Shown here: positions 6,159 through 29,221 of the stretch, one piece after another
Layout: every line of letters starts with the position of its first letter
Position numbering within the stretch: position 1 is the first letter of the stretch
The notes under the pieces: model-generated
The model's database searches: none
What the model saw: only the letters and a program-made list of their open reading frames with translations
What the model was told of the DNA's origin: nothing
Program-made: the position numbers and the translations under genes
Source of the DNA: Dysgonamonadaceae bacterium
Lineage (GTDB): Bacteria; Bacteroidota; Bacteroidia; Bacteroidales; Azobacteroidaceae
Length of the DNA: 29,444 bases
Assembly (NCBI GenBank): GCA_031260235.1
Contig: JAIRKG010000065.1
Location: 1 to 29,444 of the forward strand
Reading direction: 5' to 3'

Positions 6159-6164
6159 GACAGA

Positions 6165-9398: not shown

Positions 9399-9421
9399 TG
9401 TTTTTCGGAGGTGGAAATCCT

Positions 9422-9438: not shown

Positions 9439-9452
9439 TTTTCTTTTCATGA

Positions 9453-10301
<849 letters not shown>

Positions 10302-10325
10302 TTGGTTGATTTGGGTGTGCTTTTT

Positions 10326-10397: not shown

Positions 10398-10429
10398 TAA
10401 GCGCAAGTTACATTTCTAATAATATATTC

Positions 10430-10436
10430 AAGGAGG
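10430..10436 (+). promoter_or_regulatory. Strong Shine-Dalgarno site before the anf-operon nifI1
   Basis: AAGGAGG lies 9 nt before the ATG at 10446. Most genes in this window, as in Bacteroidota generally, lack such a site. It may let this gene be translated efficiently after the hairpin that separates it from anfH. Confidence 0.6.
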
Positions 10437-10445
10437 AACATAAAA

Positions 10446-10763: not shown

Positions 10764-10777
10764 AAACGGGTACGAAT

Positions 10778-11149: not shown

Positions 11150-11160
11150 TCAACAATTAA

Positions 11161-12780
<1,620 letters not shown>

Positions 12781-12819
12781 TACAAACAATATTTTTAAAC
12801 GAATTAAAAGAAAAAGAAT

Positions 12820-13176: not shown

Positions 13177-13188
13177 AAGTTAAAAGGT

Positions 13189-14580
13189 ATGAATTGTGAA
13201 ATAAAATCAAAAGACCGGATAGGGGTTATCAACCCCATATTTACCTGCCAGCCCGCCGGAGCGCAGTATGCAAGCATTGGAATAAAAGACTGCATTGGCA
13301 TTGTACATGGCGGACAGGGTTGCGTGATGTTTGTTAGGCTGGTATTTTCCCAGCATTTTAAGGAAAGTTTCGAGTTGGCGTCCTCCTCCCTGCACGAAGA
13401 CGCGGCTGTTTTCGGCGCTCTTCACCGCGTTGAGCAAGGCGTCGATGTGCTGCTGATGCGTTATCCGCACGTTAAAGTAATTCCAATCATCACCACCTGT
13501 TCGACCGAAGTAATCGGAGACGACATAGACGGTTTGGTATTGAAACTGAACAACGGCTTGCTGAAAGAGAAATACGCCGACCGCGAAGTACACCTTATTC
13601 CAATCCATACGCCCAGTTTCGTGGGAAGCATGGTGAGCGGTTACGATATAGCCGTAAGGGATTTCGTCAGTCATTTTGCAAAAAAGGAAGGAGAGGTAAG
13701 CAGGAAAATAAACCTTATCACAGGCTGGGTCAATCCGGGCGATGTAACGGAACTGAAATCCCTGCTGTCGGAAATGGACGTGGAAGCGACCGTCCTTTTT
13801 GAAATTGAAGCCTTTGATTCGCCCCTGATGCCGGACGGTAATCACGTGTCGCACGGCGAAACGACTATCGAAGACTTGCGCGGCACGGCAAACGCTCGCG
13901 GAACAATTGCTCTCAATCGCTACGAAGGCGGAAAGGCGGCGCAGTTTCTGGAAAGCGAATTTGACGTACCAGCAGTGATTGGACCTACGCCGATTGGCAT
14001 CCGTAACACCGATATTTTTCTGCAAAATGTGAAGAATATGACCGGTAAAGCCATTCCGGAATCGCTCGTCCGCAAACGCGGCATTGCCCTTGACGCGATT
14101 AGCGACCTTACGCACATGTTTTTGGCGGGCAAGCGCGTGGCGATATACGGAAATTCCGATATGGTGATTGGTCTGGCGCAGTTTTGTATTGATTTGGAGA
14201 TGCTGCCCGTGCTTCTCCTGCTCGGCGACGACAACACCGGCTATGCCAACGACCCCCGCGTTAAGGAATTAAAGGAAAATGTCGGCTTCAACATGGAAAT
14301 CATTACCAATGCCGACCTTTGGGAACTGGAAGACCGTATTAAAAATAAAGGGCTTGGACTTGACCTTATTTTGGGTCATTCCAAAGGACGGTTCGTTGCT
14401 ATCGACAACAATATCCCGATGTTGCGGGTCGGTTTTCCGGTTTATGATCGGGCGGGATATTATCGGCATCCGATTGTCGGCTATGCCGGAGCCGTCTGGC
14501 TGGCGGAAGGGATGGCAAACGCTATTTTCACAGATATGGAATATAAACATAATAAGGAATGGGTGTTGGGAGTGTGGTAG
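13189..14580 (+). CDS. anfK: Fe-only nitrogenase beta subunit AnfK
   Basis: This is the beta subunit (463 aa) and holds the second half of the P-cluster. Ligand cysteines are Cys20 (FTCQPAGAQYASIG), Cys45 (HGGQGCVMFVR) and Cys104 (ITTCSTEVIGDD). Stretches such as FSQHFKESFELASSSLHED and RNTDIFLQNVKNMTGK match AnfK closely, and the end KNKEWVLGVW is the usual AnfK C-terminus. The gene is intact and full length. Confidence 0.97.
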   Translation: MNCEIKSKDRIGVINPIFTCQPAGAQYASIGIKDCIGIVHGGQGCVMFVRLVFSQHFKESFELASSSLHEDAAVFGALHRVEQGVDVLLMRYPHVKVIPIITTCSTEVIGDDIDGLVLKLNNGLLKEKYADREVHLIPIHTPSFVGSMVSGYDIAVRDFVSHFAKKEGEVSRKINLITGWVNPGDVTELKSLLSEMDVEATVLFEIEAFDSPLMPDGNHVSHGETTIEDLRGTANARGTIALNRYEGGKAAQFLESEFDVPAVIGPTPIGIRNTDIFLQNVKNMTGKAIPESLVRKRGIALDAISDLTHMFLAGKRVAIYGNSDMVIGLAQFCIDLEMLPVLLLLGDDNTGYANDPRVKELKENVGFNMEIITNADLWELEDRIKNKGLGLDLILGHSKGRFVAIDNNIPMLRVGFPVYDRAGYYRHPIVGYAGAVWLAEGMANAIFTDMEYKHNKEWVLGVW

Positions 14581-14615
14581 CAAACGATTATTGCGAAACT
14601 GCGGATTTGAAAACA

Positions 14616-14990
14616 ATGTCCGAGCAGGATTATCGCGATGCGCAAGCCTACCACCGGCGGGCGCGTCAGTTCTTGAGGGCGAAGAATGCGTGCAGTCTTG
14701 TCTTCAATATAGCGTCCGTTGCCCTTGAACGTTATCTGGTTGCAATATGCGAATGGCACGGTGTAGAACCGATGAGCCATAATTTTATTGGCTTAATGAA
14801 AGAAGTGGATAAGTTAATGGACATTCCCCACGAAATAAGCCGAGACGTGCGGTCGATGGATCACATTTTTGGTATCTGCTTTTTGGATACTTACCATCAC
14901 GGAGAGCCGCAGGACGCAGATCGGGACAAGGTCTTACGCTTGTGCGACGAGATGAATTGTTTAATGAAAAAAATATCGGATTATGAATAA
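14616..14990 (+). CDS. HEPN-like small helical protein after anfK
   Basis: This small helical protein of 124 residues starts MSEQDYRDAQAYHRRARQFL. It contains CSLVFNIASVALERYLVAIC, which has the pattern of a HEPN-type helical bundle (compare CGTAYNGVLLALDAYLLLKG in the gene at 5688). The ATG at 14616 is preferred because an in-frame ATG at 14559 would lie inside anfK. The end overlaps the next gene by 8 nt. I see no convincing catalytic HEPN motif. Function is unknown; location suggests a role linked to the anf system. Confidence 0.7.
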   Translation: MSEQDYRDAQAYHRRARQFLRAKNACSLVFNIASVALERYLVAICEWHGVEPMSHNFIGLMKEVDKLMDIPHEISRDVRSMDHIFGICFLDTYHHGEPQDADRDKVLRLCDEMNCLMKKISDYE

Positions 14991-15483
14991 TAATGATTTA
15001 CCAAACGGACATCCTCACGGCGTAATGCGCCGCAAAGAACGAGAAATCACCGACCGCAGGGAAATAGACGAAATTGTATATTCCGCCAGAGTGATGCATC
15101 TTGCGCTTTCGGACAACAACACGCCGTTTCTTGTCCCTGTATTTTATGCCTACAACGGCTCTTCGCTTTATTTCCATTCCGCTCGCGCGGGAACGAAAAT
15201 CAACATTCTGAAACGCAACAACCAAGTGTGTTTTGAAATATCTGTCGATCACGGCGTGATAGAAAGCGACAGCGCCTGTGATTTTGAAGCCCGCCACCGC
15301 ACGGTTATCGGATTTGGCAAGGCAATATTCGTTGAAGACGAAACGGAAAGAACAGCCGCGTTGAAAAGTATTGTAAAACAATTTACCGACAAAACCTTCG
15401 AGTTTCCGAAGGCGAACCTCCATGCAACAGCAATCGTCCGCATTGATATTGACTTAATAAAAGGTAAAAAACACGGATTTTGA
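14983..15483 (+). CDS. NimA/PNPOx-like flavin-binding protein
   Basis: This 166-residue protein contains MRRKEREITDRREIDEIVYS and then HLALSDNNTPFLVPVFYAYN and YFHSARAGTKINILKRN. This is the layout of the pyridoxamine-phosphate-oxidase-like split-barrel family that includes NimA, which binds FMN. The substrate is unknown. It overlaps its upstream neighbour by 8 nt and touches anfO, so it is part of the anf transcript. A redox or oxygen/NO-protective role near nitrogenase is an inference only. Translation could also begin at the ATG at 15025, where the family's usual start MRRK lies. Confidence 0.8.
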   Translation: MNNNDLPNGHPHGVMRRKEREITDRREIDEIVYSARVMHLALSDNNTPFLVPVFYAYNGSSLYFHSARAGTKINILKRNNQVCFEISVDHGVIESDSACDFEARHRTVIGFGKAIFVEDETERTAALKSIVKQFTDKTFEFPKANLHATAIVRIDIDLIKGKKHGF

Positions 15484-15887
15484 TGAAAATAGCCGTTTTT
15501 TTAGACAACGATGGAATGACCCTGCCTTTCGGCGAGTCCGGTACGGTGGAATTATATGATAATACCAGCGATGGCTGGTATTGCGCTAATTGTATTCCTT
15601 TCAAACCCGACCGGACAATGGATTTGGGTCTTCTCCGGCGGTATATCCACAAAACGGCTTCGCAATTAGACGGTTGTAAAGTATTTGTAGTAAAGAAAAC
15701 ACGGGGAATATTCAAAGCCATTCTTGAAGAAGAATTGGGAATAAACGTCCGGACATTTGATGGTTCTCCGCTCGAATCGTTAGACCAAATCAGAGAGCAA
15801 TGGGAACAGGAGATAATTGCCAACGCTGCCGTGTCTGCTTGCAGCCAGCCACGTAAGACACATCGGCGGTGTTGCTCCGGTACATGA
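15483..15887 (+). CDS. anfO: AnfO-like Fe-only nitrogenase accessory protein, apparently short
   Basis: The 134-residue protein begins MKIAVFLDNDGMTLPFGESG and continues GCKVFVVKKTRGIFKAILEE, which matches the N-terminal half of AnfO, a protein needed for growth with the Fe-only nitrogenase and normally found after anfK. As I remember the family it is about 200 residues long. Here homology seems to stop near LDQIREQWEQ, and an unrelated tail (SQPRKTHRRCCSGT) leads to a stop exactly where the 23-bp tandem array starts. It may be a truncated but working gene or a decayed one. The ATG at 15483 overlaps the previous stop by one base; the TTG just before it is less likely. Confidence 0.75.
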   Translation: MKIAVFLDNDGMTLPFGESGTVELYDNTSDGWYCANCIPFKPDRTMDLGLLRRYIHKTASQLDGCKVFVVKKTRGIFKAILEEELGINVRTFDGSPLESLDQIREQWEQEIIANAAVSACSQPRKTHRRCCSGT

Positions 15888-16046
15888 TGGCTGTATCGAG
15901 AACTACATGATGACTGTACCGAGAACTACAGGATGACTGTACCGAGAACTACAGGATGGCTGTACCGAGAACTACAGGATGGCTGTACCGAGAACTACTG
16001 GATGACTGTACCGAGAAGGACAAGACGGTTGTACGTTTCAAGACAT
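15886..16046. repeat. 23-bp tandem array upstream of nifB with TGT-N10-ACA in nearly every unit
   Basis: Seven head-to-tail units of 23 bp start at 15886, 15909, 15932, 15955, 15978, 16001 and 16024. The core CTGTACCGAGAACTACAG is an inverted repeat (CTGTA/TACAG, 8-nt centre). Six of seven units keep TGT, exactly ten bases, then ACA, the pattern of the classical NifA upstream activator site; unit 5 ends ACT. In the diverged unit 7 the ten central bases have changed but TGT and ACA remain. There are no unique spacers, so this is not CRISPR. As RNA each unit could also form a small hairpin. The array ends 27 nt before the nifB ATG. Confidence 0.85.
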
Positions 16047-16073
16047 ATTAATTATATAATTATAAAATAAATA

Positions 16074-17336
16074 ATGAAAGATTTATCCAAACATCCCTGT
16101 TTTAATGCGGACGCAAAGCAAAAATATGCGCGGGTACACTTGCCAGTCGCTCCGCGATGCAATATTCAATGTAATTATTGCAACCGCAAATACGATTGTT
16201 GCAATGAAAGCCGCCCGGGCGTAAGCAGCACGGTATTGTCGCCTATGCAGGCGCTTCACTATTTGAAAGCATTGAACAAAAAGATGCCCAATATCAGTGT
16301 TGTTGGAATAGCCGGTCCCGGAGACCCCTTTGCCAATCCGGAAGAAACAATGCTTACCGTGAAACTTGTTAAAAAGGAATTTCCCGACATGATTCTTTGC
16401 CTGTCCTCAAACGGGCTTGACCTGGCTCCCTATATTGACGACCTATATGATGCGGGCGTTTCGCATGTAACGCTGACAATCAACTCGCTAAATCCTGATA
16501 CGCTGGCCAAAATGTACCGCTGGGTTCGCTACAACCGCAGGGTATATCGCGGCGAACAGGCCGCTCTGATTTTGCTTGAACAGCAACTGAAATGTATCGA
16601 ACTTCTCAAGGCGAAAGGGTTTGTTGTGAAAATAAATACGGTTATCTGTCCGGGTATCAATGACGGAGAAGTGGAAGAAACCGCCGCAAAAGTAGCCTCT
16701 CTGGGCGCCGACACAATGAATTGCCTTCCGCTGTATCCGACTGAAAATACGGAATTTGCGTTGCTGAAAGAACCTTCAAAAGAGATGATGAAAGCCATAA
16801 AACAGCGCATTGCCATGCATATTGTGCCGATGGCTCACTGCGCCCGCTGCCGCGCCGACGCCGCCGGACTGCTCGGCTGCGACAATACGGAAGCGATGAA
16901 AATGATCGGTCAATTCTCGGCGTTGGTCGTAAACAGGGGTGAAGGGCGCACAAGAGTTGCGGTAGCCAGCAACGAAGGTCTGCTGGTAAATCTTCACCTC
17001 GGCGAGGCGCGCAAAATGTATATCTTCGAGCAGTCGCGCAACGGCTATCATTTCGTCGAAATACGCAACACTCCGCCCGAAGGCGGAGGAGAAGAAAGAT
17101 GGCAAGCCCTCGCAAACACAACGCTCGTAGATTGCAGGGCGGCGCTCGTGGGAGGGATTGGGGAAACGCCAATGCGTGTACTCCATGCAAACGGGATAAA
17201 AGTCATACAAATGAGTGGACTGATTGACGCCGGATTAGACGCCGTTTATCTGGATCTGCCTGTCAAAACGCTTTGTCGCAGCGAGTACACCCGTTGCGGG
17301 GAAGCTTGTCGCGGAACCGGTCTGGGGTGTGGATAA
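16074..17336 (+). CDS. nifB: NifB, radical SAM nitrogenase cofactor synthase
   Basis: NifB fuses two [4Fe-4S] clusters and inserts carbide and sulfur to make NifB-co, the precursor for both FeMo-co and FeFe-co. The 420-residue protein has the HPCF start (residues 7-10). The radical SAM motif C-x3-C-x2-C is at Cys29, Cys33 and Cys36 (CNIQCNYCNRKYDC). GIAGPGDPFANP follows, and CARCRADAAGLLG is around residue 257. From about residue 285 a NifX/NafY-like cofactor-binding domain follows (VAVASNEGLLVNLHLGEA...). It is the only nifB in the window and must supply both enzymes. The AT-rich 27 bp before the start hold no recognisable promoter. Confidence 0.96.
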   Translation: MKDLSKHPCFNADAKQKYARVHLPVAPRCNIQCNYCNRKYDCCNESRPGVSSTVLSPMQALHYLKALNKKMPNISVVGIAGPGDPFANPEETMLTVKLVKKEFPDMILCLSSNGLDLAPYIDDLYDAGVSHVTLTINSLNPDTLAKMYRWVRYNRRVYRGEQAALILLEQQLKCIELLKAKGFVVKINTVICPGINDGEVEETAAKVASLGADTMNCLPLYPTENTEFALLKEPSKEMMKAIKQRIAMHIVPMAHCARCRADAAGLLGCDNTEAMKMIGQFSALVVNRGEGRTRVAVASNEGLLVNLHLGEARKMYIFEQSRNGYHFVEIRNTPPEGGGEERWQALANTTLVDCRAALVGGIGETPMRVLHANGIKVIQMSGLIDAGLDAVYLDLPVKTLCRSEYTRCGEACRGTGLGCG

Positions 17337-17352
17337 ACCGAATTTCAACAGT

Positions 17353-18480
17353 ATGAACGATATATGGATAATAGATTCTACCCTTCGCGACGGAGAACAG
17401 GCGCCGAGCGTATCATTTTCCCGTAAGGAAAAAATGAAAATAGCCCAAATGCTGGAAGAAACAGGTATAAATGAGATTGAAGCAGGCACGCCGGCAATGG
17501 GAAAGGAAGAACAGGATACAATCCGCCGTATTGTCCGCATGTGCAAAAGAACCCGCATTTCGGTATGGAGCAGAGCCTTGCCGGAAGATGTTGAGCAGGC
17601 GGCACTCACCGAAGCGGAGGGCATACATATTGCTTTCCCGCTCTCGAACATACAGTTGTCGGCAATGGGAAAAAGCAGGCAATGGGTAGAGGACACGCTT
17701 CCGAAGATTGTAGAACACGCCCGGCGCTATTTCAAATATGTCAGTATCGGCGCTCAGGATGCTTCACGAAGCGATCGGGAAGATATTTTCAAGTTTATCG
17801 AAATGGTTAGCAGCCTGAATGTTTTTCGCATCCGGCTTGCCGATACGGTAGGCATTCTGTCACCGATGCAAACCGCCGCACTGGTAAGCAATGTTAAAAA
17901 CCGGTATCCCGATATAAATATTGATTTCCATGTCCACAACGACTTGGGTATGGCTACCGCCAATGCCTTTACCGCCTGGCAGGCCGGCGCTTCGAGCCTC
18001 AGCCTGACGGTAAACGGCTTGGGCGAAAGGGCAGGAAATGCGGCACTGGAGGAAGTCTTGATGGCACTCAAATTAGCAGGCAAGGAAACCAACTACAATC
18101 TCCGGACATTATACCCTTTATGCAAATACGTTTCGGAAGCGTCGGGACGGCCAATAGCCGAAAGCAAGCCTGTGTGCGGCGGGATGGCGTTCAGCCACGA
18201 ATCAGGGATACATGCGGCAGGTACGCTTGTCCATACGCTGGCTTTTCAGCCGTTTGACGGCAGGGAGGCCGGACGGGAAAGTTTCCGCAATCTGTTTGGG
18301 AAACATTCCGGCAGGGGAATGCTGGACAGTTTCCTGAAAGAACAAAACCTGCCTGCCGACGAACATTGCGTTACCGGCTTGAAGAAAAAAATCGCCGACA
18401 TAGCCCGACAAAACAAGCGGAACGTATCACCTGCAGAAATCGTGGAATTGTTTCGAGAATATAGAGAAAAATGCCTGTAA
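17353..18480 (+). CDS. nifV: Homocitrate synthase NifV
   Basis: NifV condenses acetyl-CoA with 2-oxoglutarate to give homocitrate, the organic ligand of FeMo-co and FeFe-co. The protein starts MNDIWIIDSTLRDGEQAPSV, the signature of the HMGL-like acyltransferase family. HVHNDLGMATANA holds metal-binding histidines, and GGMAFSHESGIHAAG is the second family signature. The ATG at 17353 is preferred; a GTG at 17329 would add eight residues and overlap nifB. It follows nifB directly and is surely cotranscribed. An isopropylmalate or citramalate synthase is less likely given length (375 aa) and context. Confidence 0.93.
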   Translation: MNDIWIIDSTLRDGEQAPSVSFSRKEKMKIAQMLEETGINEIEAGTPAMGKEEQDTIRRIVRMCKRTRISVWSRALPEDVEQAALTEAEGIHIAFPLSNIQLSAMGKSRQWVEDTLPKIVEHARRYFKYVSIGAQDASRSDREDIFKFIEMVSSLNVFRIRLADTVGILSPMQTAALVSNVKNRYPDINIDFHVHNDLGMATANAFTAWQAGASSLSLTVNGLGERAGNAALEEVLMALKLAGKETNYNLRTLYPLCKYVSEASGRPIAESKPVCGGMAFSHESGIHAAGTLVHTLAFQPFDGREAGRESFRNLFGKHSGRGMLDSFLKEQNLPADEHCVTGLKKKIADIARQNKRNVSPAEIVELFREYREKCL

Positions 18481-18549
18481 AAACCGTAAAAAAAGAATTG
18501 TAATGATAAATTTATTGACATACATATGTTATCATTATACGGAAATGAC

Positions 18550-18557
18550 TACTTTTG
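18550..18557 (+). promoter_or_regulatory. Bacteroidota-type -7 box before the activator gene
   Basis: TACTTTTG followed by CA fits the TAnnTTTG box; the -33 region is weak. It would start a transcript near 18564, just before the ATG at 18583. This argues against an upstream ATG at 18526, because the promoter would then lie inside the gene. Confidence 0.5.
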
Positions 18558-18582
18558 CACCATAAATATAACTGACAAAAAC

Positions 18583-20145
18583 ATGTTTTGCGAAAAATAT
18601 AAACGGGTTTGTTACGCCGACAGTGACTTGACTTTTTTGGTGAACATCAGCAACATCATCAGTCGCAGTCAAGATATTTACAAAGATTTGGAACTTGTAC
18701 TGGAAGAATTGTGCAAATACCTGAAGGCGCAATACAGCATCATCACAATCGTTGATCGCAACTGCGACAGAATCATGATCAGTTCGGCATACGGACTGAC
18801 GAAGGAAGAGAAAAAGAAGGGCATATACAAAATTGGAGAAGGTGTTGTCGGAAAAGTTGTCAGCACGGAGCAACCGGTTGTAATTCCCAATATTGCCAAG
18901 AGCAATGAGTTTTTGAACCGGACAGGCATTACCTTTAACAGCAATAAACCGATGGCTTTCCTTTGCGTTCCCGTCATTATAAAAAATGAAATAAACGGAA
19001 CGTTAAGCATACACAAAACGCATCCCGGTGTCACCGATTTTTCGACTGAGGTTAAATTTCTGAACATTATTGGAATGTTGATTGGAAGGAATATCTCTAT
19101 TCGCAGGAAACAAATCGAAGAACTCGACGAACTACGTAAGGAAAACATGCGTTTGAAAGGCGTAAAACTGTTCAAGCCCGAAAACATCACCGGTAATTCT
19201 TCGTTGATGAACGATCTCTACAACATGATAGAACGAATTTCTTCGACCAACACAACGGTAATGATACGTGGAGAGAGCGGCGTAGGCAAGGAACTCATCG
19301 CCGAAGCAATACACAACGCAAGCCCTCGCGCTTCCAAGCCTTTTGTGAAAGTCAACTGTTCCGCACTGCCTGAAACCTTGATAGAGAGTGAACTTTTCGG
19401 ACACGAAAAAGGCGCTTTTACCGGCGCCAACACCATGCATACAGGACGCTTCGAGGTAGCCAATGGCGGTACAATATTTCTTGACGAAATCGGAGATGTC
19501 CCCCTGTCCATGCAAGTGAAACTTTTGCGGGTATTGCAGCAGAAGCAAATAGAGCGTGTCGGCGGGAATAAAACCATCGACATTGACGTCCGCATCATCA
19601 CTGCAACCAACCGGAATCTCGAAAACATGATTAAGGAAGATACTTTCCGCGAAGATTTTTATTACCGGATTAACGTCTTTCCCATATACGTGCCTGCCCT
19701 GCGGGAAAGACGGGCGGATATTCCCATATTGACCGATCATTTCATTGACAAAGTGAACAAGAAAAACGGAACGAAAGTCAAGCGGATAACCAGTGGTGCT
19801 ATGGACATGCTAATGGTATATTCGTGGCCTGGAAATATCCGTGAACTGGAAAACGTCATAGAGCGGGCAATGATACTCGCTACCGACAATGTGATACATT
19901 CCTACAACCTGCCGCCGACTTTACAAACAGGTTTTTCATCCGATACTATCGACAAAGGCACCCTGAGTAATGTGCTTGAAAAAGTTGAAAAACAGATGAT
20001 TATGGATACCTTGATATTGACAAAGGGAAATATGGCAAAGGCGGCAACTCTGTTGGGAATCACCGAGCGCATGATGGGACTGCGCATTAACAAATACAAC
20101 TTATCTATTCAAAATTACAAACACTTATCGAATGAAAAGTCCTGA
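18583..20145 (+). CDS. NifA/AnfA-type sigma-54-dependent activator
   Basis: This enhancer-binding protein (520 aa from the ATG at 18583; an ATG at 18526 would add 19 residues) has an N-terminal GAF domain (about residues 15-175). A central AAA+ domain follows, with Walker A GESGVGKE, the sigma-54 contact motif [15 protein letters not shown], and Walker [11 protein letters not shown]. It ends in a Fis-type helix-turn-helix ([20 protein letters not shown]). It lacks the cysteine pair between AAA+ and HTH that marks oxygen-sensitive NifA, but has Cys3 and Cys10 ahead of the GAF domain, reminiscent of the N-terminal cysteines of VnfA/AnfA. As the only activator here it may control nif and anf. 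NifA or AnfA cannot be decided from sequence alone. Confidence 0.9.
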
Positions 20146-20750: not shown

Positions 20751-21353
20751 CTACAAATCCTCCTGTGAAATCAAATTATTAAAAGTCGCATAAAGCGTTA
20801 AGCCTGCAACGGTTTTGATTCCCGTTTTTTTTGTAATATTCCTGCGGTGAGAAATTACCGTATGGATGGATATGAAGTGGTCATCGGCAATTTCTTTGTT
20901 GGTCAAACCTTTGGCTATGGAAACAAGGACTTCTTTTTCCCTGTCAGATAAATCAATGTTGTCTGGTTTTTCCTCATTATGGACGAACATTTTGATCATC
21001 CGCCGTAATTTTTTCGCCATACCTGCACTGTCGTCATAAATATTCAACACCCCGTCAAGACCCGTAAGCGTTTCGCTATCAACGTATCCGTAATGGATGG
21101 CGGCGATAATGGCATGGGGATAATCGGAAAATAAATCCTTTATGGCAAAAGGCTTGTGAGCATTGACGATTGTAGGATTTACCAGTATGATATCAACGGA
21201 TTTATCTCCTTTTGCTCGCTTGAACGATGGAATATCGTTATAGACACCCGTTACTGTAAACAAGGCGTTTTCTTCTATCATTTTCTTCATTCCCAGACGA
21301 ATCACGGGAGACGGTTCGATGATTACTATCCTGTTTCTATTCGTATTACCCAT
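20751..21353 (-). CDS. LuxR/NarL-type regulator with degenerate receiver domain
   Basis: This 200-residue protein has a receiver-like N-terminal domain (about 1-120) and a LuxR-type helix-turn-helix C-terminal domain (LSDREKEVLVSIAKGLTNKE and HTVISHRRNITKKTG). The usual phosphate-accepting aspartate seems to be replaced: the strand reads VDIILVNPTIV where most receivers have a DxxLLD-like end, and the acidic pair near the start is IIEPS. It is therefore probably not controlled by phosphorylation in the normal way. It follows the hemerythrin-domain gene by 6 nt, and the pair is likely one unit. Targets are unknown. Confidence 0.85.
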   Translation of the reverse strand: MGNTNRNRIVIIEPSPVIRLGMKKMIEENALFTVTGVYNDIPSFKRAKGDKSVDIILVNPTIVNAHKPFAIKDLFSDYPHAIIAAIHYGYVDSETLTGLDGVLNIYDDSAGMAKKLRRMIKMFVHNEEKPDNIDLSDREKEVLVSIAKGLTNKEIADDHFISIHTVISHRRNITKKTGIKTVAGLTLYATFNNLISQEDL

Positions 21354-21359
21354 GGCGGA

Positions 21360-22043
21360 TTATTTTTCAATTCGTTCAACCAGCGCTATCAATATTTGTT
21401 CTTCCAGTGAGGTGTGTTTACTCAAATCAAATTCAAATAAAAACAAGTCTATCAGTGCATCGCGGCATTTTTCGATGGAACATTCAGGGGGAAGATATTT
21501 AATTAAAATATTTTTCAAATCGTTCAATGCGGCGTCAAGGTCGCTGTGGTTTCTCCCGTATTCCTTAATCTTATATTTGCCCGTTTTTTCTCCGTCGAGC
21601 AGCGATTGAATATACGGAAATACCACTTGCTCTTCATATTCGAAATGCGTGATAACTTCCTGCCGGTATTTTTCGCAAAATTTCATCAATATTTTGCCGT
21701 TTTTCAGGCAGCAGGAATCAATTAAATCCAAAATCCTGGTAATCACTTTGGTTATCCGGTTTTCGAGATAATCTTTGTGGGAATTTTTCAAATACCTCAT
21801 TAAATCGGTCAGCGGTATTTGCGCCAGTGTGTGGATATTCGGACAATAATCGTTAAAGGTATATAAATTGCAAACCAGCAAAAACAGCGAAGTTGAGATG
21901 CGGTTTTTCTCGCAGATTTGTTTGACGGTTCTTTCTCCCAAATCGAGATTGAGATTGAAGGAGGGAAAGACAAACAGTAGCCGATAGTTGGTCAAAACCA
22001 AGTCTGCCACTTTCATTTTTTCGGAAAATAAATTGTGATTCAT
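21360..22043 (-). CDS. Hemerythrin-domain protein, RIC/YtfE-like
   Basis: From about residue 85 this helical protein has the di-iron ligand pattern of hemerythrin/RIC proteins: SHKDYLENRI, THFEYEEQVVFPYIQ, NHSDLDAALNDL and SKHTSLEEQILIALVE. RIC/YtfE proteins repair iron-sulfur clusters damaged by nitric oxide or oxidants; hemerythrins bind oxygen. The first 80 residues are not the usual ScdA N-terminal domain. The ATG at 22043 is chosen; a TTG at 22052 would give 230 residues and overlap the previous gene. It lies 5 nt after the nuclease-like gene and 6 nt before the regulator. Protection or oxygen sensing for nitrogenase is an inference. Confidence 0.82.
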   Translation of the reverse strand: MNHNLFSEKMKVADLVLTNYRLLFVFPSFNLNLDLGERTVKQICEKNRISTSLFLLVCNLYTFNDYCPNIHTLAQIPLTDLMRYLKNSHKDYLENRITKVITRILDLIDSCCLKNGKILMKFCEKYRQEVITHFEYEEQVVFPYIQSLLDGEKTGKYKIKEYGRNHSDLDAALNDLKNILIKYLPPECSIEKCRDALIDLFLFEFDLSKHTSLEEQILIALVERIEK

Positions 22044-22048
22044 AATTC

Positions 22049-23014
22049 TCAAATATTAATATTTTTATTTTCTATTGACATAAAATCAATGCATTTTTCA
22101 ACCACCTTAAACGTTTCCGAACTTTCAATCGAATTATCATTATGATACTCCAAAATTCTTTTTCGTTCAAAAACCAAATAATCTTGTTCTATATAATCCG
22201 AATGGTAAAATTTCCTTTCTTGAACCTTTATTAGTGAATACGGAATAAACAGAGTATGTTGCGGTTTTGTCTTATAAAATCTCAAATAATTCTCAAACCG
22301 GCGGGTGTCGTGCTGTTTGGATTCATATTTTTTCCCACAGGCACATTGGCACAGAAAGATTACTTTATTTCCGCATTTATCCGCAAAGGGCAACCAAGCT
22401 ATGATGTCTAATCCACGTTCTTGTGTGTTTCTTTCAGATACTTGATTTAATTCATAATCCTCAACCTGTAAATCTAAATCACGGGCTAACTGTTTGATTT
22501 TTGATATTGCATTTCCTTGATATTGCGTATTTTTACCAAATTCTTTAACAACTGCTTTTACCGGTAAAAATTCTCTTAATACGGCATAAGAGACTTTCTC
22601 AAAATCAGCAGTTAAATCTGATTGAAAAGGATTAAAAATATCAAGTTGTGACGATATGAGCAATGACAGATATAATTTATTTTTAACAGATAAATTTTGT
22701 TTCAACAATAAGGTTTCATTATTTTGATACTCAAATGGATATTCATCTGTGTATAAAGATATGCGTTCTTTTATTACTTCAAAAACAGTATTCAAAAAGG
22801 ATTCGTCATCATCTCTTGCTTCGGAATTACAATATTCCTTTACTCCGAAAAAACGGTCTTGTACATCTCCAAAAGTTACGCCATTCTCTTTTTCAAAAAG
22901 AGCAAATAACTCTATAAAATCAGCATAATTATTTATCTCGGACTTTGTATAGTCCGGTTTGTCTATATTATTGAAAGTTTGGATACATTTAGTGAATTTA
23001 TTTTCAAAAGTCAT
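22049..23014 (-). CDS. Probable PD-(D/E)XK-type nuclease, end of the dnd operon
   Basis: This protein (321 aa; 332 from an ATG at 23047) has a C-terminal part that looks like a PD-(D/E)XK nuclease. Glutamates occur in FEKVSYAVLREFLP (about residues 150-160 in the longer numbering). QERGLDIIAWLPFADKCGN supplies the aspartate (Asp214), and VIFLCQCACGKKYESK supplies the Q-x-A/C-G variant of the third motif. The N-terminal half is unrecognised. It overlaps the ParB-like gene, so it belongs to the phosphorothioation operon and is a good candidate for the DNA-cutting effector. Nuclease activity is inferred from this motif pattern and not proven. Confidence 0.65.
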   Translation of the reverse strand: MTFENKFTKCIQTFNNIDKPDYTKSEINNYADFIELFALFEKENGVTFGDVQDRFFGVKEYCNSEARDDDESFLNTVFEVIKERISLYTDEYPFEYQNNETLLLKQNLSVKNKLYLSLLISSQLDIFNPFQSDLTADFEKVSYAVLREFLPVKAVVKEFGKNTQYQGNAISKIKQLARDLDLQVEDYELNQVSERNTQERGLDIIAWLPFADKCGNKVIFLCQCACGKKYESKQHDTRRFENYLRFYKTKPQHTLFIPYSLIKVQERKFYHSDYIEQDYLVFERKRILEYHNDNSIESSETFKVVEKCIDFMSIENKNINI

Positions 23015-24098
23015 CGCCGTCTTGTTCCATTTTGGTTCTGAAATCATTTATTTTACTTGCAACCCTACGAATATTTTTTAAATCATCGTATAATTCAGAG
23101 TAAAACGATTTTACTCTGTTTGACAGAATATCCGCCTGTTCAATAGATTTCAAAGAATCTTTAATTTTCCTCTCAAACTGCAAATCAATATCATCTGTTA
23201 ATTCGTAGGCTTCATATATAGTCGCACCTTTTTCAAATGCAGATAGCGCCATGTTATTTCCAATTACTGCATTTAGCAATTTTAATCCTTCACTATCGCC
23301 TAACACTCTTGATTGTCCTTCTGATTTTTTAAACCACCAATTAGTTGTTTTCTTAAGATGGTCAGTATTTAGATTTTCTAATGGATTTTCGGAATTTACA
23401 TCAATGTTGATGAAATTACGAATGTTGTCCTTATTCAAACTATCCGTAAAATAATTCAGAAAGAAACTTGTGTCGTTTAATCCATCAATTTGGTAAAATG
23501 CCTCGTCTTCAACCTTTTTGTATAATTCAAAACTTATCAATAGTCGTTTCACGTATGCAGTAGTGCTACCAATAACTTTTGCTATTTCTCGTGAAACATT
23601 TAGGAAAGAAATGTCTTTAAAATTAATATCATTACGCAATTCATACAAATACCTTGCTTTTTCAAGCAAACGCCAAGACTTTTTTCCTGTAATATGAATA
23701 AAACCGAGATATTTTAAAATCTCATTTCGGCTATTAAATTCAAGACAAGGTAATATTTGAGGTTTGAATTTTGCATTGTCTGCAATTTCTTTTGTTGCTA
23801 TTTTTTTTACAGTTGTAAGATCTGGATTATTCAACAACAAAACGGCTGTTAATCTTCGATTTCCTTCAATTACAATGTATTTTTCTTCTTCTTTTTCATC
23901 CGGGACGACCAAAAGCAACTCGCCGGCAAAAAAATCATTTTCGCCAATGGCATCCATTAACTCTAATGTCGCGGCTTCCAACAACATAAATTCCATGACA
24001 GATTTTTCGTCCTTGCCTTGTTTGGATTTGGGTAGACGTGGATTGTATAAATCCAATTTCAAATTTGTGACTGGTATATTTTTTATCTGCTGTTCCAT
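23004..24098 (-). CDS. ParB-like N-terminal domain protein, dnd operon
   Basis: This 364-residue protein starts IPVTNLKLDLYNPRL, a ParB/Srx-like first strand, and has VIEGNRRLTAVLLL (about 78-90), the GNRR box that in ParB and related proteins binds nucleotide. Helical regions follow, then a charged coiled C-terminus. SREIAKVIGSTTAYVKRLL looks like a helix-turn-helix as in ParB. It lacks the DGQHR motif of DndB, so it is not an ordinary DndB. It lies 2 nt after the DndE-HerA gene. It may sense modified DNA or load the neighbouring nuclease; this role is speculative. Confidence 0.75.
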   Translation of the reverse strand: MEQQIKNIPVTNLKLDLYNPRLPKSKQGKDEKSVMEFMLLEAATLELMDAIGENDFFAGELLLVVPDEKEEEKYIVIEGNRRLTAVLLLNNPDLTTVKKIATKEIADNAKFKPQILPCLEFNSRNEILKYLGFIHITGKKSWRLLEKARYLYELRNDINFKDISFLNVSREIAKVIGSTTAYVKRLLISFELYKKVEDEAFYQIDGLNDTSFFLNYFTDSLNKDNIRNFINIDVNSENPLENLNTDHLKKTTNWWFKKSEGQSRVLGDSEGLKLLNAVIGNNMALSAFEKGATIYEAYELTDDIDLQFERKIKDSLKSIEQADILSNRVKSFYSELYDDLKNIRRVASKINDFRTKMEQDGDDF

Positions 24099-24100
24099 AT

Positions 24101-25681
24101 TTATTTACTATTATAAAACTGTTTTATTTCAAATAATTCTCCTTTTGGAAATTCTTTTATATTGGAAATTGCCTGCCCTTTTTGTATTTTTTCTAAACTG
24201 CGATATGCTTTTATACCATCTTTATCACTAAAACCTAAAAACTTATTAATTGCTTTCGCATTGGTTTTGTTTTTCACATCTAATAAAAACGACACTTCGC
24301 ACATACTCGAAAAATCAAAAGTCGGCTGGTTGAACTCTTCTATACCCTGTGATAACAGCACAACCGAAACGCCTTTTGAGCGAATTTCACGCAATATTTT
24401 TTCCAATATATCTTGATATTTCCTTTCCTTAAAAATGACGTGCGCCTCGTCTATTAACAAAACGTACCTCATTGCACGACAATTATTTTCTGTTGGCGTA
24501 CTTTCCATATTCATAAAAACGTTGTAAATGTAATTTACAATCAGAAATAAAGAAGTAAAGCGAACTGAATTAGACAAATCACCTGACAAAGATAAATAAA
24601 TGTTCTGATTCAAGAAAGTGCTTGCCTTTTTATCTTCTTTGAATATTTTATAACGGCTTAATTCGTCAATAATCTCAGTTAAGGTATCTCGTTTGTCTCC
24701 AACAATTTCCAGCAATTGTTCATTTATTTCAGAAAGGCTTGGATATTCACCCGGGCGTTTAGAAATAAATACCTCGTTAGTTGCCTCGCGTAATTTTCCA
24801 CGCTGCTTAATGCCAATATTTGAGTATTTACAAATTATATCTACAAATTTATCAATCCCCATTTGCTTGTTTACATCGTTTATACTGTCGATAAACGACA
24901 GTGGATTTACAGGAAAAGGCGTTTCTGGTGCGTCAATAAATTGCGCTTTTGTTTTTTCAAAAAACGGTTGAATTTCAATCAAATCATCATCTTTTAATCC
25001 TTTGAAATCCAAGTAGATAAAATTAACGTGATGATTTGATTTTTCGGAAATTTCTCGCAACAAATGTAATGCAAATTGTGTTTTCCCCGTTCCTGAACTT
25101 CCGGCAATAGCAATATGATTATTACTATATTCTGCTGTATTATTGAAATTTAGCACAATCTCATCATTTTTCAATCCTACATTATTGCCAACTACTAACT
25201 TTATTGGCTCACTGAAATAAGTTTTTTCAATATTTTGATTGTTGTTTTTTACGGCATCCAAACTTACTTTTACGGTGTCCAACATTGAAATTCCTTTGTC
25301 TAAATGCTCGGTCAAGAAATCTAAAAATGTATAATTATTGTTGTTTCGGAATAAATTGTCCATCAATAATAAACCGTGGTCAATGTGTAATTTGATATAG
25401 CGCGGTATATTATCGTCCGTTTTGTAAATACCATAGTGCTGACAAATCAAGGCAATGTAAAAATCGCGATATTTTTCGTCAAAAAGAATATGGTCTTTAT
25501 ACTCTTTCCCTTTGGAATCGTAAATGTTAAATTCCGAGGTCGAAAACCTTTTACCATTTTGTAATGAATACCCCAGGGCGATTCGCGCAATCACGTTTTC
25601 TTTTGTGCCTGCGGGAAGTTTTGCGGTAAGTTGCCGAACAATATCCTGATTTGCTTCCGAAGTTCTAATGTTAATTTGCAT
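24101..25681 (-). CDS. DndE fused to a HerA/FtsK-type ATPase
   Basis: Residues 1-110 match DndE, the small DNA-binding subunit of the phosphorothioation complex (RQLTAKLPAGTKENVIARIA, then ALGYSLQNGKRF). From about residue 160 an ATPase domain follows, with Walker A GSSGTGKT (194-201) and Walker B VLLIDEAH (407-414), typical of HerA/FtsK-like DNA translocases found in defence systems. DndE normally stands alone at about 110 residues, so the 526-residue fusion links modification to a motor that may take the place of DndF or DndH. It overlaps dndD by 11 nt. Confidence 0.8.
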   Translation of the reverse strand: MQINIRTSEANQDIVRQLTAKLPAGTKENVIARIALGYSLQNGKRFSTSEFNIYDSKGKEYKDHILFDEKYRDFYIALICQHYGIYKTDDNIPRYIKLHIDHGLLLMDNLFRNNNNYTFLDFLTEHLDKGISMLDTVKVSLDAVKNNNQNIEKTYFSEPIKLVVGNNVGLKNDEIVLNFNNTAEYSNNHIAIAGSSGTGKTQFALHLLREISEKSNHHVNFIYLDFKGLKDDDLIEIQPFFEKTKAQFIDAPETPFPVNPLSFIDSINDVNKQMGIDKFVDIICKYSNIGIKQRGKLREATNEVFISKRPGEYPSLSEINEQLLEIVGDKRDTLTEIIDELSRYKIFKEDKKASTFLNQNIYLSLSGDLSNSVRFTSLFLIVNYIYNVFMNMESTPTENNCRAMRYVLLIDEAHVIFKERKYQDILEKILREIRSKGVSVVLLSQGIEEFNQPTFDFSSMCEVSFLLDVKNKTNAKAINKFLGFSDKDGIKAYRSLEKIQKGQAISNIKEFPKGELFEIKQFYNSK

Positions 25682-27788
25682 ACAATTCGTTGTATTTATT
25701 AATTAAATTTTCAGGACTTGTTTCTACAAATTTAGAAACATCCGTATTGAAGTTGTCAATTATGTATGCTTTGCTAATATTGGGTTTTAATAAATCAAAT
25801 TCGCCTTCTGTCAATTCCTTATGAATTAACGGAAATAAAATCACTTGTTTTGAAACATTTGGATAAAACTCCTTTATTACATTTTCGGCGTGGTCTTTAT
25901 CGAATTTCTGCATAGGTGAATCAATGAATACCGGAAATTCAATATCCGATTCATCAACTAATGATTTTAAGAGAGCCGAAGCATACATTTGTCGCTCACC
26001 CATCGACAAAGAACCTTTATCTATTTTTTCATTTCGCACATCAAAGAGGTTTATATCTACATCATCGCCCGCTTGGTTAATATCCACAACAACTTTATGG
26101 ATAAATCCCTTTTTGTGCATTAGAATATTCAATTCATCCAAAATATTTTCCTCCAATTTCTTTTTTGTAGTGATTTTGAATTCTTTGATAAAATCTTTTA
26201 ATTGAGTTACAAGTTCTTGTGTTTTCCTGTCTTTTTCAGAATAACGCCTTGAATCATCAATCTTTTTTCGCAATTCTTCTTGACGCTGTTTTAATGTTTT
26301 TATTTCGTTTTTCAGTCCGCCAATTTTTTCACCCAAATCATAAATACCTTTATCAATGCTGAATATACGGTCATCTAATCGTTTTTTTGCTGCTCTTAAA
26401 TTTGCAATATATTCATCTTCCGCATCTTTTTCCGCCAGCCGTATTTTTCGGCGAATGGAATCTATATCGCTTTTTGAACGTAAATAGTTGTCGTTTAATC
26501 GGGTAAAAGCATCTCTAAAAGTATGTTTCAAATGATTAACCAATGTATTTAATTCATTTGTCTGTATATCTGAAAAATCGTGCAACTGTTTGAAAATTGA
26601 GGGTAATTCGGGAACGTCCGAAAAGAAATGTTTCTTAATAAGTTTTTTAATTTGTGCTTCATAAAAATCCCTAACTTCAACATCAATCACGCCTTTAAAT
26701 TGTTTCTTTTCTTTTTCAATATCATCAAGTATGCGTATTGTTTTTTCTTTTACATCGTCTTGTTTGTATTTATTGTCCTTATAGTTTTTTTCGTTTCCCA
26801 ACTGTGAAGAAACGTCCATCAAAGTTTCGCCTGCCAAACCAAACGGAATTAAGTCAAACAAATCTTTTAAATTATTCTGCAAATTTGAAATTTTATCATT
26901 CAATTCTCGTTCATTTGATTTCAATTCATTGAGTTGTTCCAAAGTCATCATATTGCCTTCTTGGACTAACTTCATTTGAATTTCATTTGATTCTCCTTGT
27001 TTTTCAACTTTTTCCTGGTTTAACTCTTGTATTTGGTTATCAATTTCATCGATATTGATTTGTTTATTCTTTATGTCCGTTTCAATCTGATTAAATTCCG
27101 TTCGCTCTTGCGGTTTTGCAGATTTTTTGCGGTATTCGTCTTGTATGTTTTCTAATTGGTCTTTTAAATCTTCGTATTTTTTTATACCTAAAACTTCAGT
27201 GTACGCCTTACTCAAAATTCTTCTTTGTTCAGGTGAGTTAATTTCGGCAAGCGATACAATTTTTTCTGCATCGAAAAAGAAAAATTTAGCAATTTCAATA
27301 GGTAAAATAAAATCGCGTATAAAAATTTCTTCGCCGTCCTGTTTCCCTTCTGTTGTCAAATCCTGAATTAGCTGGTTTTGATAACCGTCTATTAAAACTT
27401 CGACTTTATCGTTAGTACTTGTAACAGTGTCAAATGTGCGTGTGATTTTTATTTCGTTGCAAGATATTTCTGGAATTTTTACGTCTTTAAATGTTACAGA
27501 AACAGAAAATTTCGTTTCGCCTTCTGTTCGTGCTAATCTATTGAGAGTGTTTCCGATATATTTACCGTAGCCTCCTTTGTCTGCGATTTCTTTTTGATAC
27601 AGTTCATCAACTTTATCCATTTGACGACCATACAAGCACCAAACCAATGACATTAAAAAGGTCGTTTTACCGAAACCGTTTTTACCACTGACTACGACAA
27701 TATTCCTATTGTCATCTGGCAACAGATTTATCGCATTATTTCCTTTGTAAATACGAAAATTATTTAATGTAATTTCTTTAATCAGCAT
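25671..27788 (-). CDS. dndD: DNA phosphorothioation SMC-like ATPase DndD
   Basis: DndD is the SMC/Rad50-like ATPase of the phosphorothioation complex (705 aa). It starts MLIKEITLNNFRIYKGNN, with Walker A GKNGFGKT at 35-42. Coiled-coil helices fill about residues 200-550. The signature SMGERQMYASALLKSLV and Walker B FPVFIDSPMQKFD are near the C-terminus. The stretch FFFDAEKIVSLAE is also usual for DndD. It overlaps dndC by 11 nt and dndE by 11 nt. Without DndC next door it could be mistaken for a generic AAA family protein, but the neighbour settles it. Confidence 0.9.
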   Translation of the reverse strand: MLIKEITLNNFRIYKGNNAINLLPDDNRNIVVVSGKNGFGKTTFLMSLVWCLYGRQMDKVDELYQKEIADKGGYGKYIGNTLNRLARTEGETKFSVSVTFKDVKIPEISCNEIKITRTFDTVTSTNDKVEVLIDGYQNQLIQDLTTEGKQDGEEIFIRDFILPIEIAKFFFFDAEKIVSLAEINSPEQRRILSKAYTEVLGIKKYEDLKDQLENIQDEYRKKSAKPQERTEFNQIETDIKNKQINIDEIDNQIQELNQEKVEKQGESNEIQMKLVQEGNMMTLEQLNELKSNERELNDKISNLQNNLKDLFDLIPFGLAGETLMDVSSQLGNEKNYKDNKYKQDDVKEKTIRILDDIEKEKKQFKGVIDVEVRDFYEAQIKKLIKKHFFSDVPELPSIFKQLHDFSDIQTNELNTLVNHLKHTFRDAFTRLNDNYLRSKSDIDSIRRKIRLAEKDAEDEYIANLRAAKKRLDDRIFSIDKGIYDLGEKIGGLKNEIKTLKQRQEELRKKIDDSRRYSEKDRKTQELVTQLKDFIKEFKITTKKKLEENILDELNILMHKKGFIHKVVVDINQAGDDVDINLFDVRNEKIDKGSLSMGERQMYASALLKSLVDESDIEFPVFIDSPMQKFDKDHAENVIKEFYPNVSKQVILFPLIHKELTEGEFDLLKPNISKAYIIDNFNTDVSKFVETSPENLINKYNELYAN

Positions 27789-29118
27789 TTTCCCGCTCCC
27801 TTTTTATATATTCTTCAATGCGAGTTTCGATGTCGTCTTTTAACCCTCTTTTTCTATTCAAAAGCGATTTATTCTTTTGTAGGGTTAAAAGTTCTTGAAT
27901 TAGATCAAAATTTTGCGGTTTATTTTTGCAAGAATTTTTCAATAACTCTAATTCTTTGTCTTTTTTCTTGTTATGCCCGTCCATGTTTAAATTGGATTTA
28001 TATGCGTTACTATATATTTCTGACACTTTATAATCAAAAACAAAATCACGATACCAAATTGTTTGTATAGCAATAAGTTCCTGATTTGTAATTAATTCTA
28101 TATGCGGTCTTTCTTTTTGTATTTCCTTTTGCGTTTTCAACAGTCTACCTAAAATAGAAGCCCTATAAAATGGATAATAAGCCCCCATATCATTAACTGC
28201 CTGTGTCCCATTCCTGCGAGTTGGCATACGATTTTTAATGTCATTACGCTCTGCAACAATTTCATCCCTAAAATCCAAAAGCGGTTTCAACCACGCAAAA
28301 CCGTTATTAATCAATGCTCCCATTGATTTATCTACCTTAACAACCGTACACATCCAACAGCCGAAACGACTTTGTCCGCAGGATTTATGCTTTGTGTCTG
28401 TTACAACAACCGGGCATTCGTAATCGTCAGCACTTGCATTGGCATAAATTTGAAAAAGTTCTTCATTGCTTGCCTCCCAAGGAGAAGGCATTGTGTTAAT
28501 AATGTGCCAAACTTGCTCCAACTGTAAATGTCTGATTGGTGCATATATATAAGTGTTTGGCTGTAAAGGGTGCTTTGTTAAGCGCTTCCCTTTTATAGCG
28601 TGTTTGTTCATTGATTTTGCACGATTGGCGCTTTCGCTCATTCGTGTTCCAATCAAAATTATTGCTTCGCCAAATTCACTTACCTGTTCTGTTATAAATC
28701 TCGACGTTGGTTTGATTTTAAGTCGTTCCGTACACCAACGAAAAGCGTTGTTTGGTGCGGGATAACCGCGTCCAATCATATTGACCCACAAAGAATCTTC
28801 TAATCTTGGTATGGTTTTTATAACCCTAATCGGCAAATCTTGGTCGCGTGCTGCCTTTTCAATTTTATCTAAAACACGATAAACATATTCCGTAATAACA
28901 GGATTTTCAACCATTGTATCATTACAAACTACGTAAATATCACGACCAACAAAGCCATGAAAATGTTTTACCTGTTCTAATGCTTTCCAAACTAATTGAA
29001 GCATTAGGGTTGAATCTTTTCCACCGCTGAAACCAATTATCCACGGACGTTTGGTATTGTCTGCAAATATATATTGGTCAATGATTTCATCTACTATATT
29101 TTGAACAAAACCCATCAT
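27778..29118 (-). CDS. dndC: DNA phosphorothioation sulfurtransferase DndC
   Basis: DndC is a PAPS-reductase-like, Fe-S-containing ATP pyrophosphatase that places sulfur into the DNA backbone together with a cysteine desulfurase. The PP-loop reads GFSGGKDSTLMLQLVW. The conserved CNDTMVENP, FRWCTERLKI, ECPVVV and CGQSRFGCWMC segments contain the likely Fe-S cysteines. The ATG at 29118 (446 aa) is preferred over the TTG at 29139. It is the first gene of a five-gene minus-strand operon. No dndA is present, so a housekeeping IscS probably supplies the sulfur, and no dndB is present either. Base composition is clearly more AT-rich than in the nif region, suggesting acquisition by transfer. Confidence 0.92.
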   Translation of the reverse strand: MMGFVQNIVDEIIDQYIFADNTKRPWIIGFSGGKDSTLMLQLVWKALEQVKHFHGFVGRDIYVVCNDTMVENPVITEYVYRVLDKIEKAARDQDLPIRVIKTIPRLEDSLWVNMIGRGYPAPNNAFRWCTERLKIKPTSRFITEQVSEFGEAIILIGTRMSESANRAKSMNKHAIKGKRLTKHPLQPNTYIYAPIRHLQLEQVWHIINTMPSPWEASNEELFQIYANASADDYECPVVVTDTKHKSCGQSRFGCWMCTVVKVDKSMGALINNGFAWLKPLLDFRDEIVAERNDIKNRMPTRRNGTQAVNDMGAYYPFYRASILGRLLKTQKEIQKERPHIELITNQELIAIQTIWYRDFVFDYKVSEIYSNAYKSNLNMDGHNKKKDKELELLKNSCKNKPQNFDLIQELLTLQKNKSLLNRKRGLKDDIETRIEEYIKRERENAD

Positions 29119-29213
29119 ACGATTTATTATTGGCTGCAAAACTACTCATTTTCTATAAGATCAATTTATACTTAATTCGTGTATTCGCGGCATAAATCAA
29201 TTTTAATCAAGTG

Positions 29214-29221
29214 CAAAGGTA
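29214..29221 (-). promoter_or_regulatory. -7 box of the dnd operon promoter
   Basis: On the minus strand, TACCTTTG (29221 to 29214) fits the Bacteroidota -7 box TAnnTTTG. The -33 region is weak. The leader to the dndC ATG would be about 90 nt. Confidence 0.5.

Follow-up and report, generated by a model that had tools for sequence, protein, structure and literature searches.

The locus studied here raises the question of why a Dnd-type phosphorothioate (PT) modification core is directly followed by a ParB-like gene and a nuclease-like gene. It lies in a 29,444-nucleotide stretch (the window) at positions 1 to 29,444 of contig JAIRKG010000065.1 from a Dysgonamonadaceae bacterium, the genome of which (G000) is a metagenome-assembled genome (MAG) that is 75% complete. 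The operon is probably a PT-based restriction-modification (RM) system, the restriction half of which is a ParB–nuclease pair (the cassette) that is otherwise paired with DNA methylation. The main argument for this reading is that the homologous pair accompanies 5-methylcytosine (5mC), N6-methyladenine (6mA) and PT enzymes, all of which are able to mark self DNA. The initial annotation, made from the letters of the window, had described five overlapping or adjacent genes with a DndC, DndD and DndE core, and the map of open reading frames (ORFs) together with the profile matches confirms this operon of five overlapping or abutting ORFs on the minus strand:

dndC, 27778..29139, minus strand: PAPS-reductase-like / PP-loop sulfurtransferase, with a TTG start and an alternative ATG at 29118.

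dndD, 25671..27788, minus strand: coiled-coil ABC ATPase.

dndE-herA (DndEi type), 24101..25681, minus strand: DndE domain fused to a HerA/FtsK ATPase.

parB-like gene, 23004..24098, minus strand: ParB/Srx nucleotide-binding fold, EGNRR box, ParB-type helix-turn-helix domain and C-terminal helices.

PD-(D/E)XK-type nuclease gene (by motif), 22049..23047, minus strand: D214, Q234 and K244.

Candidate promoter element TACCTTTG, 29214..29221, minus strand: upstream of dndC, a weak element that matches TAnnTTTG.

The motif TAnnTTTG is taken here to be the Bacteroidota −7 promoter consensus. Both dndC and dndD and dndD and dndE overlap by 11 bases, the spacing from dndE to parB is two bases, and parB overlaps the nuclease gene; the more likely start of the nuclease ORF is at 23014, close to the start of most homologues. 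A census of the gene order in other genomes, as proposed in the initial annotation, found DndC–DndD–DndE–ParB–nuclease colinear in six further Bacteroidota loci (L006, L007 and L009–L012) and the same last four genes in L004, the contig of which begins inside dndD, so that the five-gene layout is not due to chance.

In the modification core, DndC matches TIGR03183 with 417 bits (cut-off 290.4) as well as PF01507, and carries SGGKD at residues 38–42 and cysteines 242, 254, 261 and 264, which we take to be possible Fe–S ligands. DndD matches TIGR03185 with 275 bits (cut-off 245.85) and contains the Walker A sequence GKNGFGKT, the sequence FIDSP, and cysteines at positions 51 and 110 only. The fusion protein is a single ORF of 526 residues, in which PF08870 (DndE) covers residues 5–109 (72.4 bits, cut-off 25, E = 4.8e-20), with TIGR03184 below its cut-off (39.8 versus 71.85); in the C-terminal part HerA_C (33 bits, cut-off 22) and TrwB_AAD both exceed their cut-offs, and the ATPase carries the Walker A sequence GSSGTGKT and the Walker B sequence LLIDEAH. 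The ATP-binding motifs of the core are intact, and aminotransferase-V proteins, which are candidate sulfur suppliers, are encoded in the same genome, for example at C149.

The literature considered here consists of excerpts of PMC10853773, PMC9519451, PMC7464106, PMC11662687, PMC11931770, PMC12704722, PMC12839542, PMC9122126 and PMC5608340, and all statements on published work refer to these excerpts. The fusion of DndE to a HerA-type ATPase/helicase, which is what the window ORF contains, had been counted among the unusual parts of the locus, but it is already known as DndEi: dndEi has been described in Bacteroidales with reference to a 2016 paper (Zheng), the title of which names a GAAC/GTTC motif (PMC7464106), and clade-3 HerA domains are fused to DndE beside a DndD-related ATPase (PMC10853773). 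The best PADLOC model for the window DndD is PbeC (PDLC02742, E = 1e-274). This label was dropped and membership of PbeABCD was rejected because the CxC zinc hook, which marks the Pbe ABC ATPase clade (PMC10853773), was looked for in the window DndD and is absent.

The ParB-like protein carries the EGNRR box that had been noticed in the initial annotation. It scores 19.1 bits against TIGR00180, below the cut-off of 58.45, and PDB sequence profiles gave no useful match; its AlphaFold model matches ParB, KorB and Noc structures and combines a ParB/Srx nucleotide-binding fold with a helix-turn-helix domain. As judged from this model, the protein may bind CTP or another nucleoside triphosphate and clamp DNA. 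Pfam finds no HNH domain in either the ParB-like or the nuclease-like protein, and the two are separate ORFs, so that they do not represent a DUF262–HNH protein of the DndI or SspE kind; this check was confined to these two genes, and no genome-wide search for DndI or SspE was made.

The nuclease-like protein has no family match in Pfam, PADLOC or NCBIfam at E ≤ 1, and PDB sequence profiles and Foldseek gave no useful match either. Its N-terminal part is helical and winged-helix-like, whereas the predicted core is of low confidence and its fold is modelled weakly; the structure-match list for this model contains no clear PD-(D/E)XK match and is uninformative either way. The protein does contain a conserved D...Q...K site (D214, Q234 and K244). 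Among 92 readable distinct nuclease sequences the Asp and Gln residues are kept in all 92 and the complete site in 91, with the Lys residue at position 244 only in 87, at 236 only in three, at both in one and at neither in one. The catalytic residues of the D...(E/Q)xK type of the PD-(D/E)XK superfamily are therefore conserved in the family, and by this motif the protein is likely to be a PD-(D/E)XK-type nuclease. The checks by profile and structure thus bear out the ParB fold and leave the nuclease without a family match; of the suggestion that the two proteins form the effector module, a restriction module is likely from the ParB fold and the D...Q...K motif, whereas the nuclease core stays at low confidence. 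At positions 135–2317 of L115, a divergent relative of the nuclease, with the motif in the form QCKTG, is followed by an AAA_21 ATPase.

A collection of genomes from 84,980 species was scanned with the dnd-type nuclease using two peptide patterns, to which divergent relatives are invisible, and yielded 11 loci, all from Bacteroidota. The dnd genes adjoin the ParB–nuclease pair in eight of them. The three others are at contig ends: only 409 and 210 bases are available upstream in L002 and L003, respectively, and in L005 the upstream 8.9 kb contain no dnd genes and the downstream side is cut after 217 bases. DndC is encoded on another contig of the L003 genome, and was not found above the cut-off in the genomes of L002, L005 and L004 (the contig of the last starting inside dndD). 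The DndE–HerA fusion is present in six of the dnd-linked loci (L004, L006 and L009–L012), and a short DndE without HerA is present in the other two (L007 and L008), of which L008 has its dnd genes inverted and downstream. In the window, and in all of the eight dnd-linked loci except L008, dndE is immediately followed by the cassette. L008 is also a composite locus: near the pair and the inverted dndCDE, positions 1070–6070 hold a Pbe/CxC-like set made up of a ResIII helicase that carries a PLD-like domain, a 150-residue protein and a DndD-like ATPase (22%).

In the ParB tree (68 rows after collapse at 80% identity, with all dnd-linked rows retained), the 11 loci and the window form one clade with an SH-aLRT support of 100, comprising 12 rows, nine with dnd genes and three at contig ends, and the Dam-linked rows form another clade with a support of 98. 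The three partner states need two changes on this tree, which is the minimum, with eight partnerless rows left out; on the nuclease tree, made from 50 hand-picked rows, they need three changes, with seven rows without a partner left out.

It had been stated at the outset that finding the ParB-like and nuclease-like genes mostly apart from dnd genes would speak against one system. This is true of the wider family, but there the pair mostly stands beside a cytosine or adenine methyltransferase (MTase), which strengthens the restriction-module reading. Viral contigs were scanned with a ParB seed and the best 80 of 103 confirmed loci, near-copies included, were kept. The nuclease and a DNA MTase accompany ParB in 76 of these 80, the MTase within 3.5 kb being a cytosine-5 (m5C) enzyme in 73 and Dam-like in three; in the remaining four the contig ends 1, 17, 322 or 1046 bases past ParB. 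A scan of viral contigs with a nuclease seed gave 55 loci, many of them on the same contigs, and 53 hold ParB, nuclease and MTase, counted wherever they lie within flanks of about 6 kb and irrespective of adjacency, the other two being cut by the contig end. To identify MTases near the cassette, BLAST was run with four query enzymes; Pfam, applied to five partner enzymes, assigned PF00145 in L015, L028 and L091 and PF02086 in L113 and L112. In the viral loci the m5C enzyme takes the place of dndCDE and is mostly convergent, and the wider-family nucleases are 22–32% identical to that of the window where BLAST aligned them.

Many of the viral loci appear P2-like, with upstream ORFs of portal and terminase size, a setting deduced from ORF lengths, from Pfam on L015 and from the annotation of Escherichia phage Wphi. 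In Wphi the cassette and its m5C MTase are gp98 (ParB), gp96 (nuclease) and mth; the first two are homologues of the window's pair and keep its gene order, and the genes overlap. Pseudomonas phage vB_PaeM-D14A is a further named example; 17 phage records contained the ParB protein and two were examined. In the phage record NC_070904.1 (Peduovirus P2) the MTase adjoining the pair is annotated as Modification methylase BspRI. BspRI presumably acts on GGCC, a possible site for this cassette type. The cassette also occurs in 48 of 5,426 complete Escherichia coli genomes, with the 20 rows listed reading 'ParB N-terminal domain-containing protein | hypothetical protein | DNA cytosine methyltransferase'.

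In the genome samples, the nuclease profile matched in seven of 395 Bacteroidota genomes and in five of 395 Bacteroidia genomes, the window's own being in both. The ten other loci, from which a second, weak nuclease match of G207 (L100) was left out, are all divergent: three adjoin an m5C enzyme (L110, L111 and L182), four have a D12 (Dam-like) enzyme within 1 kb (L112, L113, L114 and L183), L181 has an m5C enzyme 4.8 kb away, L180 has none adjacent and L115 is at a contig edge. The lone pair of L180 (G492:C85) lies between UbiD and BipA genes, and the same genome has a dndCDE–HerA locus (L172, G492:C41) on another contig, with which it could possibly pair in trans.

Plasmid searches with ParB, the nuclease and DndE–HerA gave few or distant matches. 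Of four plasmid records with ParB, three were examined: L127 is Dam-linked, and L126 and L128 have no adjacent modification gene. Since RefSeq and PLSDB name relatives ParB or partition proteins and the fold is that of ParB, the gene might be thought to be part of a plasmid or prophage partition cassette and merely a neighbour of the dnd genes. Its regular pairing with a nuclease and a modification gene and its position inside the dnd operon, two bases past dndE, make this extremely improbable, and it was rejected on the regular partners; furthermore, no ParA-named feature is present in the annotated stretches of Wphi, pPP2 and D14A, parA and parS not having been searched for systematically.

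The coupling of a nuclease gene to a DNA-modification enzyme that is general to RM systems is therefore found in eight of the 11 loci with the dnd-type nuclease and in 76 of the 80 viral loci, and the cutting cassette looks to be common to different self-marks: it has a cytosine or adenine MTase as its partner in viral DNA and DndCDE in one Bacteroidota clade. In the window, DndC, DndD and DndE–HerA, together with a cysteine desulfurase encoded elsewhere, would make the PT mark, inserting sulfur at a short site in the DNA backbone. The ParB-like protein, by its fold a nucleotide-binding protein of the DNA-clamp type with a helix-turn-helix domain, would find and engage DNA, and would interact with the PD-(D/E)XK-type nuclease, recruiting it or switching it on unless the DNA carries the self mark, so that unmarked DNA would be cut. 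A more specific and tentative version, which we regard as possible but on balance doubtful, is a clamp-type module in which ParB loads, slides and licenses the nuclease unless a self mark (5mC, 6mA or PT) is met. In Salmonella PT is present on only 10–15% of GAAC/GTTC sites (PMC11662687). If the sliding clamp were true, a sparse mark would protect long stretches, which may answer the puzzle of how partly modified PT systems avoid self-cutting, and the transfer of one module between methylation and sulfur chemistry would be explained.

The opposite logic, in which the mark itself or a breakdown of the system sets off the ParB–nuclease pair as an SspE-like or back-up suicide effector, is unlikely. 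DndI is described as toxic or DNA-damaging once modification is deleted (PMC11662687). Back-up nucleases tend toward locus boundaries (PMC10853773), whereas here the cassette directly follows dndE in all but one of the dnd-linked loci. It is also kept with m5C and Dam-like MTases, which would mark host DNA, and because of this a logic common to all partners fits avoidance of the mark better than triggering by it.

The relation of the cassette to DndB and DndH bears on the same question. The initial annotation had reported neither, and both absences hold: no PF14072 (DndB) match was found in the window's 75%-complete MAG, in which DndF, DndG and SspE were not separately searched for, and the DndH profile, the PADLOC model of which matches the HerA part of the fusion, hits only the fused HerA domain in this genome. 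DndB (PF14072) was found in none of the nine genomes with a dnd-linked cassette (G000 and those of L004 and L006–L012), and, of the eight other than G000, six have the fused HerA as the sole match to the DndH profile and two have none. DndC above the cut-off is present in 15 of 395 Bacteroidia genomes, and the cassette adjoins it only in the window's own; the other 14 have DndC loci without the cassette, G492 having the divergent pair L180 on another contig. A close DndE–HerA fusion without the cassette occurs in seven sampled loci, six of which (L116, L169, L170, L172, L174 and L176, not L173) carry DndB just downstream, mostly after one small gene. This number excludes four divergent fused loci (L117, L118, L119 and L179; 26–31% identity), none of which shows the cassette. 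The HerA fusion is thus not a fixed part of the ParB–nuclease system, a correction to the initial reading, since two of the eight dnd-linked loci lack HerA and these seven fused loci lack the cassette. In L176 (G445:C1) the dnd genes are broken into several ORFs.

Comparison of related cores locates the exchange. The dndCDE–HerA proteins of L009 and L172 are 82, 89 and 95% identical (77–84% in DNA), and similarity in the DNA extends no further than the dndE stop codon, past which L009 has the ParB–nuclease pair and L172 has a 172-residue protein (GIY-YIG at E = 0.025, weak) and DndB. Likewise, L010 and L174 are 85, 70 and 85% identical in protein sequence and their homology breaks off no more than about 12 bases from where dndE ends, followed by ParB–nuclease in L010 and by a small, apparently membrane protein and DndB in L174. 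On a DndD tree of 28 rows (L004 and L176, with incomplete DndD, being left out) the presence of the cassette needs seven changes; the fused/not-fused label of this tree is wrong for L123, in which the HerA protein is separate, and the HerA count was not used, the cassette count being unaffected. The cassette therefore moves between dnd cores. As a separate observation, proteins of 172–199 residues directly before DndB (L169, 11441–13278; L172, 13013–14784) may be an alternative cassette in the same slot; they are GIY-YIG-like by eye, with the weak Pfam value given above for L172 and nothing for L169.

The shared slot could also be read as a shared function, the ParB-like protein regulating modification in the manner of DndB and the nuclease nicking or processing DNA for sulfur insertion, without restriction. 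ParB–nuclease and DndB never occur together in these loci (DndB in 6/7 fused loci and 0/9 cassette genomes) and DndB itself belongs to the ParB superfamily (PMC10853773). However, MTase systems keep the homologous pair although they need no nicking partner, and 14 of the 15 Bacteroidia genomes with DndC above the cut-off have DndC loci without the cassette, which makes such a role quite improbable; a restriction half that spares PT-marked DNA remains the preferred explanation.

Several PT-based systems have already been described, namely those with DndFGH, DndI, SspE, PbeABCD and type-4 BREX. DndBCDE–DndFGH has DndC, DndD and DndE in common with the window, which shows no match to DndB or DndH and has HerA fused to DndE. 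DndCDEi shares with the window DndD next to a DndE–HerA fusion in a PT-modification locus, and its descriptions in PMC7464106 and PMC10853773, in the portions considered, do not mention the ParB–nuclease pair. IscS–DndBCDE–DndI (PMC11662687) likewise combines dnd modification with a ParB-superfamily-containing restriction part that spares PT DNA, without DndFGH, but DndI is one DUF262 and HNH polypeptide, whereas the window has ParB and a PD-(D/E)XK-type nuclease as two genes and no DndB was found. In the searched excerpts, to which the 2016 DndEi paper and the supplements of PMC10853773 do not belong, no description of a ParB–nuclease pair with dnd genes was found, and the five-gene layout does not appear there as a known subtype.

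Among methyltransferase-linked systems, PD-lambda-5 is described as a compacted prophage version of an RM and abortive infection (RM+Abi) system with a labelled methyltransferase (PMC9519451). The PADLOC PD-Lambda-5_A models match the N-terminal half of ParB (best E = 1e-25), the best match covering ParB residues 1–178 only and the models spanning 428–592 positions in all but one; PADLOC scans named no second component, and no tested nuclease of the family matches a PADLOC model. PD-lambda-5 may be a methyltransferase-linked relative of the cassette. As in L115, an AAA ATPase turns up in the PADLOC model PDC-M38A, one half of which is ParB-like while an ORF for an AAA ATPase matches the other; a cytosine methyltransferase as this second half was considered and rejected, as the matching ORF is an AAA_15/AAA_21 ATPase.

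Downstream of the operon, at 20751–22052 on the minus strand, a hemerythrin-domain ORF (TTG start with an ATG a few bases on) overlaps the nuclease stop codon and is followed by a LuxR-type regulator; both are probably mere neighbours because neither adjoins the cassette in the other dnd-type nuclease loci. Positions 1021–20145 (plus strand) hold a nitrogen-fixation cluster of nifH, two P-II genes and four nitrogenase-component-1-type proteins, followed by another nifH with two further P-II genes. An Fe-only nitrogenase comes next (AnfD TIGR01861 with 1030 bits, AnfG PF03139 and AnfK TIGR02931, all above their cut-offs), then a radical SAM protein that has an FeMo-co domain, a protein resembling homocitrate synthase, and a sigma-54 activator. 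G629, a genome of the same genus as G000, has 1.2 Mb in five contigs and is presumably similar to Candidatus Azobacteroides, which fixes nitrogen as an endosymbiont of flagellates in the termite gut. If this likeness is true, a defence operon has been kept in a reduced, endosymbiont-like genome.

In conclusion, one homologous ParB–nuclease cassette links Dnd phosphorothioation with little-annotated RM-like phage loci, two subjects that are kept apart in the searched literature. It probably also provides the restriction module of DndEi systems for which no DndH match was obtained. Closely related dndCDE cores, some with this cassette and others with the DndB cassette, provide natural matched pairs for testing the restriction half, and Wphi gp98–gp96–mth, which is amenable to genetics in E. 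coli K-12, offers a small counterpart with a simple methyltransferase as partner.

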